A DNA stretch of 64,000 bases from Myxococcus xanthus (GTDB taxonomy: Bacteria; Myxococcota; Myxococcia; Myxococcales; Myxococcaceae), in the NCBI RefSeq assembly GCF_900106535.1, contig NZ_FNOH01000009.1, forward strand, positions 124,001 through 188,000. Direction: 5' to 3'. The notes beneath the pieces are model-generated. The model did no database searches, was not told the DNA's origin, and saw only the letters and a list, made by a program, of their open reading frames with translations. Both the position numbers and the translations under genes were made by a program. This document shows, in pieces, positions 25,629 to 40,528 of this stretch. The stretch's first letter is position 1. Each line of letters begins with the position of its first letter.

Positions 25629-27842
25629 TCAGGCGCGCGAGGGCAGCGTGATGCCGAAGCGCTCCGCCATCCGGTAGAGCGTGCTCCGTGCGATGCCCAG
25701 ACGCCGGGCGGCCTGCGCCACGTTGCCGCCACTGAGCGCCAGGGCCTCCTGGATGGCGCGGGCCTCCAGCTCGCGCAACGGACCGCCGGCGGCACCCGCG
25801 CTCGGTTGACTCGGCGGACTGGAAACAGGCGGCACGGCGGGCCGTGGTTCTCCTTGGGCCCCGGGCGAGAGCGGGCTTCCCAGGCCTGACGGCAGGGCAT
25901 CCACGTCCAACACGGGGGCGCCTCCCGCGCGCACCAGCGCCAACCGCAGCACTGTCTTCAGTTCGCGCACGTTGCCGGGCCAGGGGTGGGCTGCGAGCCG
26001 GGTGAGCGCAGCGGCGGAGATGCTCGACGTGGCCAGGCCTTCTTCTTCCGACAACCTCCGGAGGAGTGCATGGGCCAGTTCCGGCAGGTCGTTGCGCTCG
26101 CGCAGCGGTGGCAGCCGCAGCACCGCGCCCTGGAGGCGGAAATAGAGGTCGGAGCGGAACGTGCCGTTGCGCACGGCCGCGTCCAAATCCCTGCAGGTGG
26201 CGCCCACCAGGCGGAAGCGCGAGCGTCGCACGCGGGACTCTCCCACGCGCGAATAGGCACCGTCCTCCAGCACCCGAAGCAACAACACCTGGAGCGCGGG
26301 CGGCATCTCCGCCAGCTCGTCGAGGAAGAGCGTTCCGCCGTCCGCCGCCGCCAGCTTTCCCTCCGCGCCGCCGACGCGCGCGCCGGTGAAGGCACCAGGC
26401 GCATGGCCGAACAGTTCACTCTCCAGCAACGCGGGCGACAGCGCGCCGCAGTTCACCGCCACGAAGGGCCCCGTGGCGACCGTACTGGCCGAGTGCAGTG
26501 CGCGAGCGAGGAGCTCCTTGCCCGTGCCCGTCTCCGACAGCAGGAGCACCGGCAAGCTCGTGGGCGCGAACCGCTCCGCTTCTCGCAACGTGGCGCGGTG
26601 CTGCGGGTCGTTCCCCTTGAGCGCCGCCCACGGTCCAGGTGGCACCACCGTATCCGCCCCCCACAGGTCCCGGGACAGCGCGCGAGGCCCACGGCCCTCA
26701 GTGGAAGGCTCCGCCACCGTCGGACGTGAATCCGCGCTCCCAGGGGTCATGCCCAGGGACCGGACACCAGAAGATTCCAGCCGCACCAGCACCGCGAGCG
26801 CCGAGCTCGCATCCCCCGTCCCCACCGCCTCCGCATGGATGCGCCAGGCCGGCCCCTGTGAAGCAAGACGCGTCTCCAACGCCGCGCCTCGAAACGCGGC
26901 GTCCGTCAGCACCCGCCACGAAACACCGAGCGCCGCCTCCACCGCCATCGGCCCCTGTCCACCGAGCAACGCGCGCGCGGCGGCATTGAAGCGACTCACC
27001 CGCCCCATCGGCTCGACGACGAGCACCGGGCCATCCTCACGCGACAGGCGCGACTCCAATCCCCCCCGCGCCGCAGCGGCCACTCGGGCCCAGGCGACCT
27101 CGCGCAGCCGCGCCTCGGCGGCATGGGCCACACTGGCCACCGCCACCAGCACCAGCGGATCCGCCGCGCCAGCCGGCCCCGTGACGTCCAGCACGGCCAC
27201 CAGCTCTCCAAAGGGGTCATGGACCGGCGCCGCGTAGCAGACGAGCCCATGGTGCCGCTGCGCGTAGTGCGCCGGCCCCACCACCGCGACGGCGGAGGAC
27301 TCCGCCAAGGCAGTGCCAATGGCATTCGTCCCGCGAGAGGTCTCATCCCAGCAGGCCCCCTCCACCAGGCGCACATAATCCGCGTGGTGGGTGAAGTCCC
27401 CGCCCGAGCTGCGGGTCGCCAGGATGACGCCCTCGCGGTCCGCGAGCAGCGCCACCCGCCCCGAAGGCAGGGGCGCCGCCGACAACATCTCCAACATGCC
27501 GCCCAGCTCGTGCCACACCGGCTCCAGCCGGGCCCGGCGCTCGACCAGCGCCAAGCTGCCCACACGGGGCCCTTCGTCCGGCTGTCCGGTGCTCGGGGCG
27601 CCCAGCGACCGTGAGCGCTGCCAGCGGGGGAGGATGGAGCGCAACTCCGGGCGCAACCCGGCCTCCCCGTCGAGTGCCCCCACGAGGAACTGCTCCCACA
27701 GGAGCGGTGATGCGCTGAGCGTCAGCGTCCCCAAGGACCTCGAATCTTGGTTGAATCCCGATGGCGGCAACAACCTGGGAACGCCGCAATGTTCCTGTCC
27801 CAACCTGATGCGGCGCATCACGAGATATGGGTCGCCCCTCAC
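25629..27842 (-). CDS. AcoR-like sigma-54-dependent activator (GAF-AAA+-Fis HTH)
   Basis: Up to 737 residues. The N-terminal AcoR-type sensory part ([11 protein letters not shown] with [19 protein letters not shown] and [14 protein letters not shown]) is followed by a PAS-like stretch. The AAA+ domain has Walker A SETGTGKE, sigma-54 contact loop GAFTGA, Walker [14 protein letters not shown] and the arginine-finger region [10 protein letters not shown] Fis-type HTH follows ([20 protein letters not shown]). It activates sigma-54 polymerase when its GAF domain binds a small effector. It sits just upstream of the sigma-54-promoted ALDH gene, its likely target. The start is uncertain (ATG 27842, ATG 27818 or further in). 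Confidence 0.88.
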
Positions 27843-27874: not shown

Positions 27875-27926
27875 TGACACGTCATTGACGCGTCAGGCGG
27901 CGACGCGACACGGCGCTGACACGTCA
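27875..27926. promoter_or_regulatory. Three TGACRCGTCA enhancer-like boxes
   Basis: TGACACGTCA at 27875-27884, TGACGCGTCA at 27886-27895 and TGACACGTCA at 27917-27926. Offsets of 11 and 31 bp place all three on one helix face. They end 75 bp before the -24 element at 28001. The same box pair recurs upstream of the two small genes at 38334 and 38866. Confidence 0.7.
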
Positions 27927-27999
27927 ACCGCCCCCTCCGGACCCAACCCACTTCACAGGTCCCTCTCACACACCTCTGAGGTCCCCCCCGCAACAAACG

Positions 28000-28014
28000 T
28001 GGCGCGTTGCGTGC
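28000..28014 (+). promoter_or_regulatory. Sigma-54 promoter of the OmpA/MYXO-CTERM operon
   Basis: TGGCGCGTTGCGTGC: GG-N10-GC with TGGC and TGC kept. It predicts a transcript start near 28026 and a leader of about 60 nt to the TTG start at 28088. Confidence 0.75.
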
Positions 28015-28087
28015 AAAACACTCCGCGTCTCAAGTATGGCGGACGCCCGCGTGCGCTTTTCCGGCGCCACGCGAGGGGGAGGAACTC

Positions 28088-29929
28088 TTGTCTTCACATC
28101 CGTATCACCCATGGCTTGGAGGTCTGGCCGTCCTCTGGGCGGTCACGGCTCAGGCCCAGGCGCAGCGCATTCCCGGCATCGAGCTGGAGCGGCTGCAACT
28201 CAATCCCGGTGCACGCGACAGTCTGGTGTTGTCCACCGGCGACCTCATGTCCCGCGGCGAGTACCGCCTCGGCTTCACCGGGCACTATGAGAAGGAGCCC
28301 TTGGTGCTCGTCTCCGGTGGAGAGCAACAAGGTGTCATCGTCTCCAACCGCGTGACGGTGCACCTCAGTGGTGCCTATGCCATCACCGACTGGTTGGAGC
28401 TCGGCGCGCAGGTGCCCATCGTTTCCCAGTGGGGACCGGACACCGCGGCGCTGGGCGTCGCCACGCCGTCCACGAGCGCGCTTGGCACGCCGTGGGTCCA
28501 GGCGCGCGCGGGAATCCTCTCCGAGCAGCGCGGAGGGCTGATGGATTTGGGCCTGCACCTCGGCGCGGCCCTGCCCATTGGCAGCACGGAGACGCTCACC
28601 CGGGACCAGGGCTTCGTCTTCTCGCCTCGGCTCGGCCTGGGCAAGCAGTTGGGTGGCACGTGGCGCGTGGGCGCCGACCTGGGCGCGCTGGTGCGGACCA
28701 AGACGTATGCGCTGTCCCCCAACACGCAGCCGCACCTCGACGAGCAGGGCACGGAGCTGAACGGCGGCGTCAACCTGTCCGCCGGCCTGCTCGGCTTCCG
28801 CCAGGAGCTGGTGGTGCGCGGCACCCTGCCCGTCGCGGATGCGCCGGAGTCGATGGAAGTGCTGCTGGGCGTGCGCGTTCCCATGCCCGCGGGCACGGAA
28901 GTCTACGCCATGGGTGGCCCTGGCTTCGGCAGCACGCCGGGCACGCCATCGTTCCGGGTGCTCGCCGGCCTCACCTTCGGCACCCCCGCCTCCACGCCCA
29001 ACGCATGTGTGGAGGGTCAGCCGCATGACCCCGCCCGCTGTCCGGACTTCGACCTGGACGGTGACGGCATCAAGAACGCCGCCGACCACTGCCCCACCGT
29101 CGAGGGCCTGTCGGAGCTGAATGGCTGCCCGGACGGGGACGACGACGGCGACGGCCTGCCCAACCTGGCGGACCGCTGCCCGAAGGAGGCGGAGAACTTC
29201 AACGGCTTCGAGGACCAGGACGGCTGCCCGGATGACCCGGACACGGACGGGGACGGCATCTCCGACGCCAAGGACCAGTGCCCGGACCAGGCCGAGGACA
29301 AGGACGGCTTCCAGGACGAGGACGGCTGCCCCGACCCGGACAACGACAACGACGGCGTGCTCGACACCGCCGACCGCTGCCCCAACGAGGCCGGCCCCAA
29401 GGAGAACCGCGGCTGCCCGGACAAGGACACCGACGGTGACGGCATCGTCGACCGGCTCGACAACTGCCCCACCGAGCCTGGCCCGGCGAAGAACCACGGC
29501 TGCAAGGAGAAGCAGCTCGCGCAGATTGGCGAGAATCGCATCCAACTGCTCGAGGCCGTCTACTTCGAGAACAACAAGGACATCATCATCGCGCGCAGCA
29601 ACAAGCTGCTCGACACGGTGGCCAACATCCTCATCGCCCACCCGGAAGTGGAGAAGGTGCGTGTCGAGGGCCACACCGACAACCGCGGCAACCCTGACTA
29701 CAACCTGGACCTGTCCCAGCGCCGCGCCGACGCCGTCGTTCGCTACCTGGTGAGCAAGGGCGTGGCCCGGGAGCGCCTGGATGCCAAGGGCTTCGGTCCC
29801 ACCCAGCCCATCGCGGACAACAACACCACCCAGGGCCGCGCGAAGAACCGCCGCGTGGAGTTCAAGATCGTCGGCGACGCAGAGGGCGTGCAGACGCAGC
29901 AGGGCGAACCCTCTCCCGACACCCACTGA
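28088..29929 (+). CDS. Outer-membrane beta-barrel/TSP3-repeat/OmpA-domain protein
   Basis: 613 residues. A signal peptide ([15 protein letters not shown]) is followed by a beta-rich region (about 25-315) resembling an outer-membrane barrel. Five to six calcium-binding thrombospondin type 3 repeats follow ([45 protein letters not shown]; about 318-472). The C-terminal peptidoglycan-binding OmpA domain is at about 490-600 ([32 protein letters not shown]). The start is TTG 28088: GGGGGAGG lies 5 nt upstream and the start follows the sigma-54 promoter; the open frame upstream to 28007 overlaps that promoter. It is first in an operon with the MYXO-CTERM protein 20 bp downstream, and may anchor or display it. 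Confidence 0.9.
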
Positions 29930-29949
29930 GAACCGAGGCAGACATCCCC

Positions 29950-32900
29950 ATGAAAACGCGTGTCCTCTTCAAGACGGCGGCGCTCTGTCTCGCGCTGCTC
30001 TCATCCCTGACCGGCTGTGATTCGGGCGGTGCCCGGACAGCCGTGCCCCCCACCGAGCCCGTGCTCGTGAGCCGGACCGCCTCCCTCGTCGGAGACGGCC
30101 AGCTCGAGCCCGGCGAGCAATGTGACGACGGCAACACCACCAGCGGCGACGGCTGTTCCGCCACCGGCACCATCGAAGAAGGCTACCTGTGCCACGTGCC
30201 CGGGCGCCCCTGCTCGCTGGCGAGCCTGTGCGGCAACAACGTCGTCGACTCCGGCGAGGCCTGTGACAGCAACGTCCCCGGCTCCAACTGCACGGCGACC
30301 TGTGACCTGGCCCTGTGCGGCAACGGCGTGTTCAACAACCGCGCCCACCCGTCCTACGCGCAGGAAGTCTGCGACGACGGCAACCGCTACGAGGGCGACG
30401 GCTGCAACCGCCTGTGCGAGGTGGAGCCTGGTTTCGCCTGCACCGGCAGCCCCAGCCGCTGCGTGCGCGCGGGCGTGACGGTCTTCAACACCGGCGTGGA
30501 CGAAAACAACCGCCGGCTGGAGGTCGGCCCGGATCCGCACTGGTTCTACAGCGGCACCACCACGGGCGCGGCCACCGGTCCGCGGGCCGCCAGCGACTGG
30601 CCCCAGGAAATCCAGACGGCCCGCTTCATGGAGGCGCCGCTGGGCGCCCCCGTCTGCGTGTACCAGGACTTCATGGTGCCCTCGACGACCAACGTCTCGC
30701 AGTTCCGTCTGCGGCTGGCCACCTTCAACGACAACGACTTCGCCAGCGCGCGGGTGAACGGGCAGAACTTCACGCCCACCGTCGTCAACCAGCCGGCGGG
30801 CATGCCCTGGCAGAAGAACATCTTCCGCGAGTTCGGCGCCAACGCGCCCTGGCGCACGGGCCTCAACCGCATCGAGCTGTGCAACGAGAACGCGGAAAGC
30901 GAGCCCAACGCCTTCCGCTACCTGTTCGTGGACGCGTACGACGACCGCTGCGGCGACGGCGCCGTGTCCCTGCGCGAGGAGTGCGACGACGGCAACGTCA
31001 CCAACGGTGACGGCTGCTCCGCCACCTGCGGCATCGAGGCGGGCTACGGCTGCACCGGCCAGCCCAGCACCTGCGCCCAGACGTGTGGCAACGGCACGCT
31101 GAACCCGGGCGAGCAGTGCGACGACGGCAACGCCACGACGGGCGACGGCTGCAACGCGAGCTGCCGCGTGGAGTCCGGCTACGCCTGCCCCACCCCGGGC
31201 GAGGCTTGTGTGCCCACCTGCGGCAACGGCACGCTGAACCCCGGCGAGCAGTGTGATGACGGCAATGCCTACGACTCGGACGGTTGCTCCTCGGCGTGCC
31301 GCATCGAGCGCGGCTACGAGTGCCAGGGCGCTCCGTCCACCTGCGCCCCCCTGTGCGGCAACGGCCGGATGGATGCGGGTGAGCTGTGCGACGACGGCAA
31401 CACCACCCTGGGTGATGGCTGCTCCAACGCCTGCACCCTGGAGCTGGGCTACGCCTGCCCCGCTCCGGGCCAGGCCTGTGTGTTCACCTGCGGCAACGGC
31501 AACGTCGACCCGGGCGAGCAGTGTGATGACGGCAACCTGAATCCGACGGACGGCTGCAGCACCGAGTGCCGCGTGGAGGATGGCTACGCCTGCAGCACGC
31601 CCGAAACCGGTCCTTCCGTCTGTGTCGAGAGCTGTGGCAACGGCGCCCTGGAAGAGAACGAGGCGTGCGATGACGGCAACACCACCGCGGGCGACGGCTG
31701 CTCGACGGGCTGCCGCGAGGAGCCGGGCTATACGTGCAGCGGTGAGCCCAGCACCTGCGCCACCTCCTGTGGCGACGGCACCCGCGCGGGCGCCGAGGCG
31801 TGTGATGACGGCAACACCACGGCGGGTGACGGCTGCGACGCCACCTGCACCCTGGAGCCGGGCTACGCCTGCCCCACTCCGGGCGAGGCCTGTGTGCCCA
31901 CCTGCGGCAACGGCACGGTGGACAACGGCGAGCAGTGCGACGACGGCAACACCACGGCGGGCGACGGCTGCAGCGGCAGCTGCCGCGTGGAGAACGGCTA
32001 TACGTGCAGCGGCGCGCCCAGCACCTGCGCCACCACCTGTGGTGACGGCACCCGCGCGGGCGCCGAGGTGTGTGACGACGGCAACCTCAACAACGGCGAC
32101 GGCTGCTCCTCGCGCTGCCTCCTGGAGGACGGCCAGCCCTGCAATGCGTCCGGCGTCTGCGAGAGCGGCATCTGCAACCCCAACACCAACACCTGCATCA
32201 GCCCCAACGTCTGCGGCAACGGCATCCTCGACGAGGGTGAGCTCTGCGACGACGGCGACACCACGGCGGGCGACGGCTGCTCGGCCACCTGCGCCATCGA
32301 GGACGGGTTCGGCTGCACCGGCATCCCGTCGGTGTGCGCCGTGACGTGTGGTGACGGCATCAAGGCGGACAGCGAGGCCTGCGATGACGGCAACACCACC
32401 AACGGGGACGGCTGCTCGGCCACGTGCACCGTGGAGAGCGGCGCCGCGTGCCAGACGGCGGACGTGAGCGTGTTCATCACCCACCAGGGCAACGCGAACT
32501 GCACGCAGGTGTCGGACATCGACGCCCCCGTGCTGCCCGACGCGGCCATCCAGGCCGGGCTGGACGTGCCGGGCCGCTACCGCATCCGGTACGTGTCCGG
32601 CGCGGTGAGCTACTCGGGTGGCGTCAACTGGTACCCCGGCGTCATCGGCGTCAGCGCCAACGCGGGCACGCAGGTGCAGGGCTTCTCGCTGGGCTACACG
32701 CCCCGCAGCGGTCCGGGCTCGGCCACGCGCGCCGAGGCCATGCCCCTGGGCTTCCCCCTGTCCCGCGACTTCACGGCGGCCACGGGTGACGTGCGCATCG
32801 CGCTGGTCGACACCGACTGCAACCTGGCCAACAACTCCGACACGGCGGTGACCTACCGCGTGGACGCGCTGTCCATCTGCCAGACGGCCCCTGTCGTCAC

Positions 32901-33306
32901 GTCTCCGACGCCGGGCGGCACCGCCGGCGAGGAACTCGAGGGCACCGCCACGCCGGGCGCCACCGTGGACGTGTACCTGGACGGCAACCCCGCGCCGGTG
33001 TGCACGGTCGTCGCCGACGCGGAGGGGAACTGGAGCTGCACGCTGCCGACGGACCTGGAGGAAGGGCCGCACACCGCCGTCATCACCTCCACCTTCCCGG
33101 GCGCGCCGCAGACCTCCACGACGGTGGACTTCATCGTCGACTACTCGCCGCCGGCGCCTCCGGTCATCACCGGCCCCACGCCGGGCGCCGTGCTGGACAC
33201 GCAGACGCCCGTGCTGAGCGGCACGGCGACCCCGGGTGACGAGGTGACGGTGTACGAGGGCGGAACCGCCCTCTGCACCACCACGGCCGATGCGGCGGGC
33301 AACTAG
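29950..33306 (+). CDS. Giant cysteine-rich (DUF4215) repeat surface protein, cut by an in-frame amber codon
   Basis: 1118 residues to the TAG at 33304. Lipobox-like signal [10 protein letters not shown] at the N-terminus, then cysteine-rich units. Thirteen copies of the CDDG[N/D]...GDGC unit (Myxococcus Cys-rich/DUF4215 repeat) flank a beta domain at about 178-330 beginning [20 protein letters not shown]. After the repeats comes a lectin/Ig-like region and tandem Ig-like modules with '[19 protein letters not shown]'. The frame stays open, with clear homology, past the TAG to a MYXO-CTERM tail at 34047, so the natural product is about 1365 residues. MYXO-CTERM proteins are processed by a myxosortase and shown on the cell surface. 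It is co-transcribed with the OmpA protein from the sigma-54 promoter. Confidence 0.85.
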
Positions 33307-34047
33307 AGCTGCACGCCCACCACGCCCATGGCCGAAGGCCCGCACACGGTGACGGCCACCGCCACGCCTCCGGGCGGCAACCCCGGCCCCACCTCCACGC
33401 CCGTCACCTTCACCATCACCCTGACCGCGACGGAGCCGCCGGTCATCACCGGGCCCGCCGACGGCGCGGTGCTCAACACGTCGACGCCGCCCCTGAGCGG
33501 CACGTCGGCTCCGGGCACGGTGGTGACGGTGTACGAGGGCGACACGGTGCTCTGCACCACCACCACCAACGACGTGGGCGCGTGGACCTGCACGCCGGCC
33601 CAGCCGCTGGAGGATGGCCCGCACACGGTGACGGCCACCGCCACCGACAGCGAGGGCCGCACCAGCGAGCCCTCCGCGCCCAGCGAGTTCATCATCGACA
33701 CCCAGGAGCCCGACACGCGCATCTCGCGCACGCCGCCCTCGCGCGGCGGCAACCGGACGGCGACCTTCGAGTACGGCGCCTCCGAGGAGGACGTCACCTA
33801 CGAGTGCAGCTTGAACGGGGGCCCCTTCGAGCCCTGCCGGGACAGCTATGACGTGGGCGAGGGTCAGCACACCCTGCGCGTGCGGGCCACGGACCGCGCG
33901 GGCAACGTGGACAGCACCCCCGCGGCGTACTCGTGGACGGTGGAGCTCACCCGGGCCTTCGCCGGTGGCGGCTGCAGCACGGCGCCCGCCGCGTCCTGGC
34001 TGGCGCTCCTGGGCCTGCTCGGCCTCCGCCGGAGGAAGCGCGGCTAA
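33307..34047 (+). pseudogene. C-terminal part of the same surface protein with MYXO-CTERM signal, separated by TAG
   Basis: It is in the same frame as the upstream gene. Directly after the stop it continues SCTPTTPMAEGPHTVTATAT, where sister modules read GNWSCTLP and GAWTCTPA. The TAG thus replaces a Trp TGG codon. Two Ig-like modules follow, then 'TPAAYSWTVELTRAFAGGG' and the MYXO-CTERM signal with its invariant Cys, a hydrophobic helix and RRRKRG. There is no SD or start for independent translation. Without readthrough the upstream product would lose its sorting signal and be secreted or degraded. A sequencing or assembly error is also possible. Confidence 0.8.
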
Positions 34048-34066
34048 GGGCTGACCGCTACACCTT

Positions 34067-34135
34067 TCCGCCGGGAGGTCCACACCTCCCTCTGAGGCCA
34101 ACTCCGCCGGCCTCGTGGGCCTCCCGGCGGATTTT
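34067..34135 (+). terminator. Terminator of the OmpA/MYXO-CTERM operon
   Basis: TCCGCCGGGAGG (34067-34078) is the perfect complement of CCTCCCGGCGGA (34120-34131), with a nested CCGCCGG/CCGGCGG hairpin (34104-34130). It is followed by TTTT at 34132-34135, and lies 20 bp after the operon's last stop. Confidence 0.65.
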
Positions 34136-34169
34136 CCCCCCGCCACGCGCCAGCCCGTATGCTGGGGCC

Positions 34170-37100
34170 GTGCACGTGGCGGGGCGATTGAATGAGACGT
34201 ACGAGGAGGAGCTCCTCCTCGCGATGGACGAAGGACTGCTCTCCGGCGAGGAGGTGGCGCTCCTGCGTGAGGACGCGCTCCGCCTGCGGCGTGGCCCCCT
34301 GGAGCTGCTGCGGGAGCGAGGCCGGCTGTCCGAGGACTCCCTGGTGGCGCTTCGTGGCGAGCTCGCCTCCGAGAGCACGGACCCGAGCGTTGGCCGGCCG
34401 CTCGAGGCCGCCACCCTGACGCCCGTCACCCCGGGCGTGTCCCCGCCCCCCGCCGTGGAGCCGGACGGCCCCACCTTCCCGGTGCCGGACTGGGACCGCT
34501 ACCAGCCCGTGCGCTTCCTGGGCCAGGGTGGAATGGGCCGGGTGTTCCTGGCGTATGACCCCATGCTCCGCCGCAACGTGGCGCTGAAGTTCGTGCGCGG
34601 GGACGACCCGGAGCTGGCCCGGCGCTTCCTCTCCGAGGCCCGCGCGCAGGCCCGCGTCCGACACGAGCGGGTGTGCGAGGTGTACGAGGTCGGCGAGGTG
34701 CGCGGCCGGGGCTACATCGCCATGCGCTTCGTGGACGGCCAGTCGCTGGGACAGTTGGCGCGCTCGCTCACGCTGGAGCAGAAGGTGCTGGTGCTGCGCC
34801 AGGCCGCCGAGGGCGTGCACGCCGCCCATGGCGCGGGCCTCATCCACCGCGACATCAAACCCGGCAACATCCTGGTGGAGCGCACCGAGGACGGCGGGCT
34901 GGCCCCCTTCGTCATGGACTTCGGTCTGGCGCGTGACTGGCGCGAGGAAGGCGCCGCGCCCAACGCCGTGCAGGGCACCCCGCATTACATGGCCCCGGAG
35001 CAGGCGCGCGGTGAGGTGTCACGTCTGGACCGGCGCGCGGACATCTACGCGCTGGGCGCCACGCTCTATTCGCTCCTCACCGGCCGGCCGCCCTTCACCG
35101 GCGCCACCGAGGCGGAGGTCATCACCCGGCTCCAGCACGAAGAGCCGGCGCCGCCGCGCGCGCTCGATGCCGACATTCCATCGGACCTGGAAGCCATCGT
35201 CCTCAAGTGCCTGGAGAAGCAACGGCCCGCCCGCTACGACTCGGCGCGGGCGCTGGCGGAGGACCTGGAGCGGTTCCTCGAAGGAGAGCCCGTCCTCGCG
35301 CGACAGGGACTGGGCTACCGCCTGCGCCGCAAGGCCCGCAAGCACCGGGTGGCGCTGACGCTGGGCTCCGCGGCCCTGACGATGGTGTTGCTGGCGCTCA
35401 TCCAGGCGGGCATCGCCCGCGGCGAGGTGGCCGAGCGCGAACGCCTCACGCGCCGCTTCACCGAACGGGTGGAGCGCATCGAGGCCTCCGCGCGCTACTC
35501 CGCCCTGTCCCGCCTGCACGACACCCGTGAAGACCGGCGCGAGCTGCGCGCCAGCATGGACGCGCTGGAGGCCGAGGTGCGCGAGGCGGGCCCTCACGCA
35601 CTGGGCCCCGGCCAGTACGCCCTGGGCCGCGCGTTGCTCGTGTTGGATGAGCGGGACTCCGCGCGCAAGCGCCTGGAGGCCGCGTGGGCCCAGGGCTACC
35701 GCGAGCCCCGGGTGGCCTGGGCGTTGGCGCAGGTGCTGGGAGACCTCTACCAGGAGCGGCTGCTGCTGGACGTGGAGCGCCGCAGCCCGGAGCAGCGCGA
35801 GGTCCGCCGCAAGGAGCTGGAGCAGAACTACCGGGACCCGGCCCTGGCCTACCTGCGCCAGGCCGAAGGCCCCGACGTCCCTGTCCCACCGCTGTATGTG
35901 AAGGCGCTGTTCGCCTTCTACGAGGGCCGCCACGAAGAGGCCCTGACCCACCTGGAAGCCATGGGCCGCGCGCAGCCCTGGTTCTACGAAGCGCCTCTGC
36001 TGCAAGGCGACGTGCTGCTGGCGCGGGCCACGCAGCGCTGGCACCAGGGCGACAAGGCCGGCTCGCAGGAGGACCTGGACGCGGGCCGCCGCGCCTATGC
36101 CTCCGCCGTCGCCACCGCGGAGAGCCAACCCATGGGCCACTACGTCCTGGCGCGCCTGGAGCTGGCCGCGCTGGTGATGGAACTGTACGGCGAAGGCAAC
36201 GTGCTGCCTCACTATGAGCGCGGCGTGGAAGCGGCGACCCGCGCGCTCACCACCGCGCCGGATCACCACCGCTCGCTGGTCGTCCTCTCCCGCCTGCACC
36301 GCCGTCTCGCCGAGCAGCGCACCAGCCAGGGACGCGAGGACGCCGAGCCGCTGCTGGAGAAGTCCATCCACGCCGCGCGCGAGGCCCTGGCCCTGGCGCC
36401 GCCCAGCGACCGTGTCGCGCTGGAGCTCGCCATCACCCACCGGCTGTGGGCCCGCTACCGCCAGGAGCGTGGGCAGGACCCGAGCGAGCAGCTCCGCCTG
36501 TCCATCGAGGCCTTCGAGCGCCTGCGCCCCGAGGAGCGCGACTATGCCTTCCACGCCAACCTGGGTCTGACCTATCAGGTGTGGGCGGACGCGGAAGCCG
36601 AGCGCGGCGTGGACCCGCTGGAGCACCAGGGCAAGGCGATTGACGCGTACCTGGAGGCCATCCGCGTGCGGGAGAACCAGGCCGACGCGTGGATCAACCT
36701 GGGCAACGCCCTGCGCCGCCGCGCTTCGAATCCACGCGCCACCGACGCCGCGGGAGATTTGACGCGGGCTCGTGACGCACTGGCGAAGGCACTGGCGCTC
36801 AATCCCGGCAACGTCGTGGCCAGCTTCCGCGGCGCGGAAATTTCCGAGCAGTTGGCGCGCTGGCGCTGGAGCCACGGCGAGCCCTTCGAGGCGGACCTGG
36901 AGCAGGCGCTGGCCCTGTTCCGGCAGGGGCTGGGAATCAACGCAAAGCTCCCCCCGCTCCACAACGGGCTGGGCGCGGCGCTGCTGTGGCAGGCCGAGCA
37001 ACGCTGGGAGGAAGGCGGCGACCCCGAGCCCCTGCTCCAGCAGGCGCAGGCGGCCTTCGAGGAAGCCCGGACGCTGGCGCCCAGACAGGTGTACGCCCAC

Positions 37101-37841
37101 AACAACCTGGGCGAGGTGTGGACCCTGAGCGCCACCTTCCAGTCCGCGCGCAGGGAGAATCCAGGGCCGAGTGGCCGCGCCGCCGTGGAAGCCTACCGTC
37201 AGGCACTCTCACTCCAGCCCCAGGACGCCGACCTCTGGGCCAACCTCGGCCGCGTGCAGACACTGCTGGCGACGTGGAGCTTGGAGACCGGCGGCGACCC
37301 ACGGGCGGAGCTGGCGAAGGCCGAGGAGTCCCTCGCGCGGGCCACCACGCTGAATCCCCGCCAGGGCCACACGTGGCGCAATATGGGCGAGGCCCGCGCG
37401 CTCAAGGCCCGCTGGCTGGCGCACCGGGGCGCCGCTCAGGAATCGGACTTCGAGCTCGCGTCGCAGGCCTTCCAGCAAGCCCTGTCGCTGGAGCCCCGCC
37501 GGCATGACTACCGGCTGGCCACCGCGCGATTCCAGCTCGCCTGGGCCGCGTGGCGTCAGCAGCGGAACGAGGACGCCGCGCCGCTGCTGAACCAGGGGCT
37601 CGCGCTCGTGGCGGAAGTCCTGGCGGACCGGCCCAGGTGGGCGCGGGCCCAGGCGCTTCGTGGCGGCGGGCTGCTCGCCCTGGCGGAGACGCGCGCCTCC
37701 TCGGAGCAACGGCAGGCCTGGCGCATCGAGGGCCAGGAGGTGTTGCGGCAAGCACTGGCCCGCAACCCTCACCTGGAATCCGAATGGAGAGGCCGGCTCG
37801 GCGCGGCTCGCGAGCCGCTGGCCGGCCCTCCTACGCCCTGA
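34170..37841 (+). CDS. Hanks-type Ser/Thr protein kinase with TM segment and C-terminal TPR array
   Basis: 1223 residues. After a short leader region (about 110 residues) the kinase domain has the P-loop GQGGMGRVFLAYD, catalytic loop HRDIKPGN, DFGLARD and APE motif GTPHYMAPEQARGE. All catalytic residues are present, so it should be active. A TM helix (VALTLGSAALTMVLLALIQAG, near 394-415) puts the long TPR region (about 430-1210) outside the membrane. TPR units such as 'LEQALALFRQGLGINAKLPP' suggest protein-partner sensing. GTG 34170 is chosen as a start near the operon terminator; GTG 34176 is equally possible, and the SD is weak. It is convergent with the small gene at 37848, which ends 6 bp away. 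Confidence 0.88.
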   Translation: MHVAGRLNETYEEELLLAMDEGLLSGEEVALLREDALRLRRGPLELLRERGRLSEDSLVALRGELASESTDPSVGRPLEAATLTPVTPGVSPPPAVEPDGPTFPVPDWDRYQPVRFLGQGGMGRVFLAYDPMLRRNVALKFVRGDDPELARRFLSEARAQARVRHERVCEVYEVGEVRGRGYIAMRFVDGQSLGQLARSLTLEQKVLVLRQAAEGVHAAHGAGLIHRDIKPGNILVERTEDGGLAPFVMDFGLARDWREEGAAPNAVQGTPHYMAPEQARGEVSRLDRRADIYALGATLYSLLTGRPPFTGATEAEVITRLQHEEPAPPRALDADIPSDLEAIVLKCLEKQRPARYDSARALAEDLERFLEGEPVLARQGLGYRLRRKARKHRVALTLGSAALTMVLLALIQAGIARGEVAERERLTRRFTERVERIEASARYSALSRLHDTREDRRELRASMDALEAEVREAGPHALGPGQYALGRALLVLDERDSARKRLEAAWAQGYREPRVAWALAQVLGDLYQERLLLDVERRSPEQREVRRKELEQNYRDPALAYLRQAEGPDVPVPPLYVKALFAFYEGRHEEALTHLEAMGRAQPWFYEAPLLQGDVLLARATQRWHQGDKAGSQEDLDAGRRAYASAVATAESQPMGHYVLARLELAALVMELYGEGNVLPHYERGVEAATRALTTAPDHHRSLVVLSRLHRRLAEQRTSQGREDAEPLLEKSIHAAREALALAPPSDRVALELAITHRLWARYRQERGQDPSEQLRLSIEAFERLRPEERDYAFHANLGLTYQVWADAEAERGVDPLEHQGKAIDAYLEAIRVRENQADAWINLGNALRRRASNPRATDAAGDLTRARDALAKALALNPGNVVASFRGAEISEQLARWRWSHGEPFEADLEQALALFRQGLGINAKLPPLHNGLGAALLWQAEQRWEEGGDPEPLLQQAQAAFEEARTLAPRQVYAHNNLGEVWTLSATFQSARRENPGPSGRAAVEAYRQALSLQPQDADLWANLGRVQTLLATWSLETGGDPRAELAKAEESLARATTLNPRQGHTWRNMGEARALKARWLAHRGAAQESDFELASQAFQQALSLEPRRHDYRLATARFQLAWAAWRQQRNEDAAPLLNQGLALVAEVLADRPRWARAQALRGGGLLALAETRASSEQRQAWRIEGQEVLRQALARNPHLESEWRGRLGAAREPLAGPPTP

Positions 37842-37847
37842 CGTGGC

Positions 37848-38198
37848 TCAGTACTCCTTGGGCGGGTCCGTCGTCACGTCCAGGTTGCCGTTCTTCGTCT
37901 CCAACTCGAGCCCGTGGCTGCGCGCCTCGGGGGAGCCGCCAGTCACCACCGTGAACGGGTACGAGCCGACCGCGGCCCCGTCGGAAACGGGGTCCTCGCG
38001 CTGGGCTGCGGCCAGAGAGGTGTTGTTCAAGTTGAACGACGCCGTCGAATCCAGGCACGCGGGGGGATTCACCGTCACGTCCGATGCGGCGCCAATCATT
38101 TCAATGGAGAAGCGGACCGTGTCTCCGTGCCGGACCTTGTTGTTGGGGATGTAGCTCAGGTTCCCGGACTTGTTGATGAGAACAGTGATGATGGCCAT
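37848..38198 (-). CDS. Small beta-rich protein, paralogue A (sigma-54-controlled pair)
   Basis: 116 residues, no signal peptide. The N-terminus MAIITVLINKSGNLSYIPNN and the pattern 'NNKVRHGDTVRF' suggest a small beta-sandwich, cupredoxin- or Ig-like, but metal ligands are not conserved. One Cys is shared with its paralogue (VNPPACL), as is the tail ETKNGNLDVTTDPP. The ATG at 38198 follows AGGAG with 9-nt spacing. A sigma-54 promoter (38257-38271) and a paired box (38334-38374) lie upstream. About 45-50% of residues appear shared with paralogue B. The family is unknown to me; strong sigma-54 control suggests a condition-specific product. Confidence 0.8.
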   Translation of the reverse strand: MAIITVLINKSGNLSYIPNNKVRHGDTVRFSIEMIGAASDVTVNPPACLDSTASFNLNNTSLAAAQREDPVSDGAAVGSYPFTVVTGGSPEARSHGLELETKNGNLDVTTDPPKEY

Positions 38199-38256
38199 GG
38201 GCCGTGGCTCCTGTGCCCCACTGGGGCGTGTGATGAACTGCTGCCGGTTGTGACCT

Positions 38257-38271
38257 GCATGCACCATACCA
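38257..38271 (-). promoter_or_regulatory. Sigma-54 promoter of paralogue A
   Basis: Minus-strand TGGTATGGTGCATGC: exact GG-N10-GC spacing. The GC element is about 58 nt before the ATG at 38198. Confidence 0.75.
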
Positions 38272-38333
38272 GATGGGTCTGGTTCACGGCGTCCTCAATG
38301 ACTCACAACCGCAGCACGCCCTCAGCGGAATCT

Positions 38334-38374
38334 GGACGCGTCACCCCACCCATAAGGTCTGGCCTGACACGTCA
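38334..38374. promoter_or_regulatory. Paired enhancer boxes upstream of paralogue A
   Basis: GGACGCGTCA (38334-38343) and TGACACGTCA (38365-38374), 31 bp apart, about 64 bp upstream of the -24 element. Same motif and spacing as at 27886/27917. Confidence 0.7.
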
Positions 38375-38381
38375 GGGCGGC

Positions 38382-38729
38382 TCAGAGCTCCGGCGGATCC
38401 GTCGTCACGTCCAGGTTGCCGTTCTTCGTCTCCGCCTCGCCTCCGAGGTGCGGCTTCTCCGGCACGGGAGGGACCTCCACGGTGAACCCATACGTCATGA
38501 ACGCGGCCGATTCGGAGACCGGGTCCTCGTAGATGGGGGGCGCCGCGGAGGTCCGGTCCAAGGTGACGGGATTCGTTGCGACCAGGCACGCGGGCGGATT
38601 CACCTTCGCCCACAAAGGGCCGTTGATTTGGTCGAGCACGAAGCGGACGGGTTGCCCACGCCGGACCTTGTTGTTGGGCTCGTAGACCAGATTCCCCGAC
38701 TTCATGATGGTGACGGTGACAACGGTCAT
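38382..38729 (-). CDS. Small beta-rich protein, paralogue B (sigma-54-controlled pair)
   Basis: 115 residues, paralogue of the product at 37848. Shared blocks are SGNLVYEPNNKVRRGQPVRF, VNPPACL, EDPVSESAAF and ETKNGNLDVTTDPPEL. There is no signal peptide or TM helix. Each gene has its own leader, sigma-54 promoter and box pair, offset by 531-533 bp, so the whole unit was duplicated in tandem. The ATG at 38729 follows GGGAG. It lies 185 bp downstream of the activator gene at 38915, reading in the same direction. The function is unknown. Confidence 0.8.
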   Translation of the reverse strand: MTVVTVTIMKSGNLVYEPNNKVRRGQPVRFVLDQINGPLWAKVNPPACLVATNPVTLDRTSAAPPIYEDPVSESAAFMTYGFTVEVPPVPEKPHLGGEAETKNGNLDVTTDPPEL

Positions 38730-38788
38730 GGGCGCGGCTCCCGTGCCCCCAATGGGGCAATGAGAAGGATTGCTGCGGGCTGTGAGTT

Positions 38789-38803
38789 GCAGACACCGTA
38801 CCA
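38789..38803 (-). promoter_or_regulatory. Sigma-54 promoter of paralogue B
   Basis: Minus-strand TGGTACGGTGTCTGC, exact GG-N10-GC spacing and near-identical to the paralogue A promoter. The GC element is about 60 nt before the ATG at 38729. Confidence 0.8.
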
Positions 38804-38865
38804 GTCAGGAATGGCGCGAGGCCCCCCTCGACAATCGACACCCGCGCCGCCCCTGAAAGGCAAAT

Positions 38866-38907
38866 GGACGCGTCAACCGAACCCACCAGGTCCGGGTTGA
38901 CGCGTCA
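38866..38907. promoter_or_regulatory. Paired enhancer boxes upstream of paralogue B
   Basis: GGACGCGTCA (38866-38875) and TGACGCGTCA (38898-38907), 32 bp apart, about 64 bp upstream of the -24 element and just after the stop of the activator gene. Confidence 0.7.
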
Positions 38908-38914
38908 GCCAACA

Positions 38915-40528
38915 CTACCCACCACTGAGGCCCAGCTCCCGGACCCGCCGCTGGAGCGCGCGCTTGGAGACCTCCAGCCGCTGCACCATCCGGTCGAGGT
39001 CGCCCTCGCACTCGTGGAAGCAGCGCGTGATTTCCTCGGGGCTCAAATCGCGCGCGGTGCGCAGGAGCGAGCTCTTGTCGATGAGGACGTAGACGGACGG
39101 CCGGGGAATGCCCAGCCAGTCCGCGGTGGCCTTGAGGTCCCAGGAGCTGGCGCGAAGGGCCTCCAGCAACTCCTGCTCGCCCACGTCCGCGGGCTTTCGC
39201 CGCGGTGCCTTCGCGCCATCGCCCGCCTCCTCACCCGTGCGCACGGTCAACGGACGCCCGGGGACTGGCTGCGCGTCCGCGTCCAGCACCTGCTCCAGCC
39301 GTGCATCGGCGCGCAGCCCCGGCGTGCCCCGGCTGCCGATGACGAGCTGACGGGTGACGTTGCGCAACTGGCGGATGTTGCCGGACCACGCGTGGCGCAC
39401 CAACTGGACGGCCAGGGCCGCGGGCAGCCAGGGCTCGGCGCGCGGGTCCGAAGTCGTCAGTTGACCGCCCTCCCCCATGGCCTCCAGCTCCTGGCGAGAG
39501 AAGTGGAGGAAGAGCAGGCCCACGTCCTCGCGGCGCTCACGCAGCGGAGGCACCAGGATTTCAAAGCCGGCCAGCCGGTGCAGCAGCGGGGCCTTGAAGG
39601 TGCGCTCCTGGATGCGGGCCTCCAGATGCGCGTCCGTGGCGGAGACCAGCCGGACGTCGACAGGCACCGGCGTATGGCCGCCCACCGGATAGATTTCGCC
39701 TGTCTCCAGCACGCGAAGCAGCGCGGCCTGCACCTCGGGCGGCGCCTCGCCAACCTCATCGAGGAAGAGCGTCCCGCCCTCGGCCGCGCGGAAGAAGCCT
39801 TCCCGGTCGCGGCTGGCGCCCGTATAGGCCCCGCGCTGCGCGCCAAAGAGCTCCGCGGCAACCAGCTCCTTGGCGAGCGCTCCCAGGTTGACGCTGACGA
39901 AGGGACCGGCGCGGCGGGGACCACTGGTGTGGATGGCGCGCGCCACCAGCTCCTTGCCCGTGCCCGTCTCGCCGCGGATGAGCACCGGCACGGCGAGGTC
40001 GGCCACCCGGATGATGTCCTCGCGCACGCGGTGGATGCCCTCACCGTGGCCAACGATGCCCAGGTCCAACACGCCCGGCTGGCGGAAGGACGAGGCCAGG
40101 TGGAGCAACAGCACCACGCGGTCGGCCAGCACCAGCGGCACTCCATCGGACAGCTCCTCGCGAGAGAACTCCCGGCCGCCCACGACGGGCTCGTTCGCCA
40201 CGCGCACCTGGGTGCCGTCCTCCGGCACCAACATCCGGAGGCCGCCTCGTGGGCCGGGCTCGAACTCCACCGGCTTGCGGCTGAGGAATGGGTCTCCCAG
40301 CGGGAGGGCCATGAGCCCCCCGGGCCGGGAGAAGTCCGGCGCGTTGCGAGACAGGGCCGCTGTGCGCCCCTGGGACGCGAGCACCTCCAGCAATAGCCGC
40401 TCGCCAATGCGCTGCGGCTGGGGATGGGACACAATCGTCAAGGCAGGCACGGAGAGCGCCACCGGGCTCTGCCCGGCCTGTGCGCGGCCCGCGGTGGTCG
40501 ACATGTCTGCGGCGAGTTTCTGCTGCAT
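38915..40528 (-). CDS. Sigma-54-dependent activator with FHA-like N-terminus and two C-terminal HTH motifs
   Basis: About 537 residues. The N-terminal beta-rich domain (LTIVSHPQPQRIGERLLLEV ... VPLVLADRVVLLLHL) resembles the FHA domains of myxobacterial enhancer-binding proteins, which read phospho-Thr. The AAA+ domain is complete: GETGTGKE, GAYTGA (Phe to Tyr in the sigma-54 loop), [14 protein letters not shown] and the LLHRL/RE region. The C-terminus has two Fis-like helices in tandem: LKATADWLGIPRPSVYVLID and LDRMVQRLEVSKRALQRRVR. No receiver domain. It is the nearest candidate to bind the TGACRCGTCA boxes. Start uncertain: ATG 40528, ATG 40504 or ATG 40600; none has a good SD. Confidence 0.88.
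   Translation of the reverse strand: MQQKLAADMSTTAGRAQAGQSPVALSVPALTIVSHPQPQRIGERLLLEVLASQGRTAALSRNAPDFSRPGGLMALPLGDPFLSRKPVEFEPGPRGGLRMLVPEDGTQVRVANEPVVGGREFSREELSDGVPLVLADRVVLLLHLASSFRQPGVLDLGIVGHGEGIHRVREDIIRVADLAVPVLIRGETGTGKELVARAIHTSGPRRAGPFVSVNLGALAKELVAAELFGAQRGAYTGASRDREGFFRAAEGGTLFLDEVGEAPPEVQAALLRVLETGEIYPVGGHTPVPVDVRLVSATDAHLEARIQERTFKAPLLHRLAGFEILVPPLRERREDVGLLFLHFSRQELEAMGEGGQLTTSDPRAEPWLPAALAVQLVRHAWSGNIRQLRNVTRQLVIGSRGTPGLRADARLEQVLDADAQPVPGRPLTVRTGEEAGDGAKAPRRKPADVGEQELLEALRASSWDLKATADWLGIPRPSVYVLIDKSSLLRTARDLSPEEITRCFHECEGDLDRMVQRLEVSKRALQRRVRELGLSGG

Follow-up and report, generated by a model that had tools for sequence, protein, structure and literature searches.

In myxobacteria, sigma-54 activators (bEBPs) with an FHA input domain are found beside Ser/Thr kinases. 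Two regulons of Myxococcus xanthus show how bEBP sites can be arranged at sigma-54 promoters. The Nla28 regulon has many targets and relies on bEBP-bound tandem repeats with the half-site CT(C/G)CG(C/G)AG (PMC9765219). The NmpR regulon has paired palindromic bEBP sites (GCGCA-N5-TGCGC) before its sigma-54 promoters, the sites being 14 bp apart at mxan_4236 (PMC11841059). The TraAB system of outer-membrane exchange combines a barrel-TSP3-OmpA protein with a cysteine-rich repeat partner and a MYXO-CTERM signal (PMC3325183, PMC6372800).

The locus analyzed here lies in a 64,000-nucleotide stretch of M. xanthus DNA (the window) and resembles each of these systems in part. It shares tandem sites at sigma-54 promoters with the Nla28 regulon, but the operator, the activator and the targets are all different. 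It shares paired palindromes with the NmpR regulon, whose activator, however, is of the response-regulator type and whose operator differs from TGACRCGTCA. Its surface operon has the TraAB composition, except that the TraB-like protein falls below the family cut-off (NCBIfam TraB 261.7 bits, cut-off 700) and the cysteine-rich partner has no PA14 match. Finally, its activator has the central AAA+ domain and the nearby kinase gene of FHA-type bEBPs, from which it differs in a tandem C-terminal HTH and in an FHA domain unconfirmed by Pfam. The sigma-54 regulon is a known kind of system, whereas this particular regulon and the co-variation of its operator and activator appear to be new; no paper on TGACRCGTCA as an operator was found in the literature searched, which included few subscription papers. 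We consider it very probable that the TGACRCGTCA boxes are enhancer operators of a sigma-54 regulon and that they are bound by the bEBP encoded at 38915-40528.

The features of the locus are collected in Table 1. The preliminary description of this DNA had reported seven boxes in three upstream regions, and all seven lie at the coordinates it gave, five of them exact (27875, 27886, 27917, 38365 and 38898) and two matching at 9/10 positions (38334 and 38866). The box offsets are also as described (31 bp plus the additional 11 bp, 31 bp and 32 bp), and the window contains zero further exact copies. A sigma-54 promoter was defined by a GG and a GC element separated by 10 bp and by a match to TGGCAYG-N4-TTGCW. 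All three promoters in the window are of the GG-N10-GC form and agree with the consensus at 9-10 of the 12 scored positions. Each box set does precede one of them, the nearest box core lying at 74 bp (operon), 63 bp (gene A) and 63 bp (gene B), and nowhere in the window does a box overlap a promoter. Since the window has only a mild excess of individual boxes (17, with at most one mismatch, vs 9.3 by chance), the evidence resides in the pairing, the spacing and the promoter, not in the word alone. A box pair together with a sigma-54 promoter was observed three times, compared with 0.0017 expected per 64 kb in a first-order Markov simulation of the window.

Table 1. Features of the locus, in window coordinates
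Feature	Position	Strand	Basis or remark
Second sigma-54 activator, 737 aa, divergent from the TraB-like operon	25629-27842	-	Fis-type HTH
Operator box TGACACGTCA, set 1, distal	27875-27884	.	Exact match
Operator box TGACGCGTCA, set 1, middle, 11 bp offset from the distal box	27886-27895	.	Exact match
Operator box TGACACGTCA, set 1, proximal, 31 bp offset	27917-27926	.	Exact match
Sigma-54 promoter TGGCGCGTTGCGTGCA, TraB-like operon	28000-28015	+	10/12 consensus positions, gap 74
TraB-like outer-membrane protein (barrel, TSP3, OmpA), TTG start	28088-29929	+	Pfam OmpA, TSP_3
Cysteine-rich surface protein, DUF4215/myxo_disulf_rpt repeats, Ig-like end	29950-33306	+	Profile matches
Ig-like protein with weak MYXO-CTERM match	33328-34047	+	Profile matches
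Ser/Thr protein kinase with TPR repeats, last operon gene	33933-37841	+	Pfam Pkinase 2e-39
Small protein A, no signal peptide evident	37848-38198	-	
Sigma-54 promoter TGGTATGGTGCATGCA, gene A	38256-38271	-	Sequence
Operator box GGACGCGTCA, set 2, proximal to gene A	38334-38343	.	9/10 match
Operator box TGACACGTCA, set 2, distal	38365-38374	.	Exact match
Small protein B, 54% identical to its homologue A and likewise ending in ETKNGNLDVTTDPP	38382-38729	-	
Sigma-54 promoter TGGTACGGTGTCTGCA, gene B	38788-38803	-	Sequence
Operator box GGACGCGTCA, set 3, proximal to gene B	38866-38875	.	9/10 match
Operator box TGACGCGTCA, set 3, distal	38898-38907	.	Exact match
Sigma-54 activator (bEBP), proposed binder of all boxes	38915-40528	-	Pfam, motifs, structure model

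The preliminary description spoke of a local regulon. Comparative evidence upholds the regulon but not its being local, as the genome has members outside the window and so do other genomes of the family. A search of the 9.26-Mb genome with a strict pair pattern returned 7 sites, three of them the window sets, vs 0 for the reversed control. Three further pairs precede sigma-54 promoters of two near-identical trypsin-like lipoprotein genes and of a gene for a secreted protein of ~330 residues. The remaining pair (G000:C22:11393-11434) lies within the coding sequence of fdhD with no promoter role evident, and was judged a chance match. This fdhD-internal pair recurs in many genomes of the genus and is probably a by-product of the protein sequence.

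Exact boxes number 71 in the whole genome (strand-counted); many of them are single and probably represent background. Those within 45 bp of another exact box are spaced 11, 20-22, 31-34 or 42 bp, that is, by whole helical turns. The exact-box scan adds pairs 20-22 bp apart, several of which are upstream of sigma-54 promoters, and one of the added pairs precedes another lipoprotein start resembling those of the trypsin-like genes. A search for one box followed by TGG-N9-TGC at a gap of 40-70, with no second box, found three sites in the genome and missed the three in the window; therefore, we adopted the two-box pattern.

Among 96 Myxococcaceae genomes, the pair-plus-promoter pattern is present in 52, with about 130 matches (fdhD sites and some chance matches included) vs 2 for the reversed control. 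Rescanning with wide limits yielded box offsets of 11-12, 20-22, 30-34 and 42-43 bp, and box-to-promoter gaps clustered at 49-53, 60-65, 72-75 and 82-85 bp. Both the box spacings (11, 21, 32 and 43 bp) and the gaps (about 51, 62, 73 and 84 bp) track the helical repeat. Outside the modal class, all 22 offsets amount to one, two or four turns, and 30 of 36 gaps share the phase of the main cluster; the corresponding p-value of about 2e-8 is optimistic, because related genomes are not independent. Such phased spacing is what would be required of dimers of one protein placed on one face of the DNA, towards the promoter. The GAC/GTC core of both boxes and the promoter's GG/GC did not vary across the 38 activator-adjacent promoters compared, unlike most of the columns flanking them.

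Genera without close relatives of the activator are, with few exceptions, also without pairs. The activator type is present with no clear adjacent pair or pair-plus-promoter match in G045 and G083, and the same holds for the close paralogues L201-L203, L205 and L210. The gene order of activator, small gene(s), convergent kinase and surface operon is kept in Myxococcus, Citreicoccus and Corallococcus, and Corallococcus is among the genera that keep the set 1 pair with the operon. In most loci the kinase gene faces the activator module in convergent orientation; Hyalangium and many paralogue loci have the activator plus kinase alone.

The activator itself has a AAA+ domain (Pfam Sigma54_activat, 8.7e-58) with a GAFTGA-type loop (GAYTGA) and Walker A and B motifs (GETGTGKE and TLFLDE), and the AAA+ fold resembles NtrX/FleQ (Z about 21). 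The isolated C-terminus matches the Fis-type HTH_8 (25.5 bits, cut-off 22), and the structure model places two HTH units there, one formed by helices 451-485 and a second by helices 497-531. The N domain is beta-rich in the model and may be FHA-like. Pfam returned no PF00498 match for it, its SR motif lines up with FHA profiles at an hhalign probability of only 9.9, and Foldseek and VIA searches with the whole protein matched almost only the AAA+ part.

The distal box of set 3 is 7 bp past the activator stop codon, and orthologues have it at the same position. In most close orthologues the box pair begins within ~25 bp of the stop codon, ahead of a small gene. A Corallococcus subgroup differs: there the first promoter comes almost directly after the stop codon, and the recorded pair precedes the second small gene. 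The preliminary description had proposed this adjacent activator as the binder, and the comparative evidence, namely its linkage to the boxes and the co-variation with its recognition helix described below, makes it the likely one. As a separate observation, in some species a channel-like gene replaces the small gene behind the activator. A mechanosensitive-channel-like gene stands behind a box pair directly after the activator at L141, L153, L158, L170 and L178, and at other places at L107 and L114. The gene that follows a box pair and a sigma-54 promoter at L113 (G046) is terpene-cyclase-like and similar to geosmin synthase.

Activator paralogues of 60-67% identity have the same layout, and their adjacent boxes differ with the recognition helix of the first HTH (HTH1). 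Paralogues with YVLI, YMLI or YLLI in this helix adjoin TGACRYGTCA, with somewhat degenerate outer halves, and those with YDLI that have an adjacent box adjoin CGACRYGTCG; with YELI both box classes occur. Many YDLI paralogues have no box nearby. Among 20 further paralogue loci, those of the YDLI type had CGAC clusters only and none had TGAC clusters; 5 of the 20 had been picked for nearby CGAC pairs, so that the unbiased part of the test is small and comes down to L372 and L374, together with the lack of wrong-class clusters. Independent helix/box switches on the tree are few. The strongest evidence that the box is read by the adjacent activator, via HTH1, comes from this co-variation.

Where His precedes the conserved Arg in a YDLI-type helix, CCACGCGTGG is found in place of CGACRYGTCG at two loci (L193 and L216), possibly as a third operator class. 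No such palindrome lies alongside 4 of the 6 loci with this HR combination, so the HR-to-CCAC rule is weak. The genome also codes for a paralogue 58% identical to the activator (L161, G000:C1:1033953-1035512), which has its own small gene and convergent kinase; no box of the TGACRCGTCA type was found adjoining it.

An alternative binder, at least at the TraB-like promoter, is the second activator of the window. This complete bEBP carries a Fis-type HTH, starts only 33 bp from set 1, is nearer to the OmpA promoter than the activator at 38915-40528, and has an orthologue beside the operon in L166, a member of the M. xanthus-like group. However, it is distant from the other box sets, and no orthologue occurs within the 4 kb examined at seven Corallococcus operons (L122, L124, L125, L128, L129, L132 and L139) or at the g17 operon (L110), all of which retain the box pair and the promoter. 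Because it was not found within that distance where the boxes and the operon are kept, we regard it as an unlikely binder. Marginally less likely still is that the boxes are sites of some other protein, a repressor or a global regulator, which modulates sigma-54 promoters activated by something else. Palindromes of the TGACRCGTCA type would also fit dimeric repressors, and many single boxes are away from sigma-54 promoters. Yet the spacing is locked in helical phase with a sigma-54 promoter at 50-85 bp, the window boxes leave the promoters free, and the box class tracks the recognition helix of the adjacent activator. A chance or repeat artefact of a GC-rich genome, with which the mild enrichment of single boxes and the one genomic pair of seven inside fdhD would agree, is refuted for the set as a whole by the simulation, the reversed-pattern controls and the conservation of boxes amid varied flanks, and we give it next to no credence.

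The preliminary description had linked the OmpA operon and the two small proteins in one sigma-54 regulon, a link that the comparative evidence strongly supports. The product of 28088 is one among several TraB-like paralogues in the genome, and the true traB is located elsewhere (G000:C1:510977-512530, 1019 bits). With its TraB-like and cysteine-rich repeat proteins, the region 28088-34047 makes up a surface operon of TraAB-like composition, separate from the true traB. The true start of the kinase is probably near 34044. For the small proteins, searches against Pfam, NCBIfam and PDB sequences all came back empty. Their structure model suggests a cupredoxin-like fold; the model is modest, and its Foldseek matches are weak and plastocyanin-like (best E 0.05). 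We also considered the conserved tail DVTTDPP as a signal common to other proteins, and rejected this since the DNA pattern is restricted to the small genes in 13 genomes. It resembles the final strand of the fold with a short extension.

From the boxes, promoters, spacing, conservation, linkage and co-variation, all read from the sequence, we infer the following course of binding, activation, kinase control and target function. The bEBP at 38915-40528 would bind each TGACRYGTCA palindrome as a dimer, probably via its first HTH. Where at least two boxes share a helix face, its AAA+ ring would be able to assemble and then activate sigma-54 polymerase sitting on that face at a distance of 50-85 bp. 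In this way the bEBP would switch on the TraB-like operon and the two small proteins, as well as the trypsin-like lipoproteins and other secreted proteins encoded elsewhere. The convergent Ser/Thr kinase would be the likeliest upstream signal, perhaps acting through the FHA-like N domain, and because the kinase may itself be a target of the regulon, the circuit may feed back.

The locus may further be one copy of a duplicated, self-contained Myxococcaceae signalling module whose paralogues are insulated by a simple operator code, a reading to which we give even chances. The module would comprise a tandem-HTH activator, a small cupredoxin-like target gene and a convergent Ser/Thr kinase. In the code, the residue after the conserved Tyr of HTH1 would set the outer base pair, V, L or M specifying T:A and D specifying C:G, while E would tolerate both. 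Perhaps His before the conserved Arg would alter the next base, as the two CCACGCGTGG loci hint. For predatory, kin-recognising bacteria, the analysis provides a predicted regulator, operator and target list for surface and secreted proteins, including a TraB-like operon. The paralogous modules, in turn, would offer a natural data set on how sigma-54 activators change their DNA specificity after duplication and avoid cross-talk.
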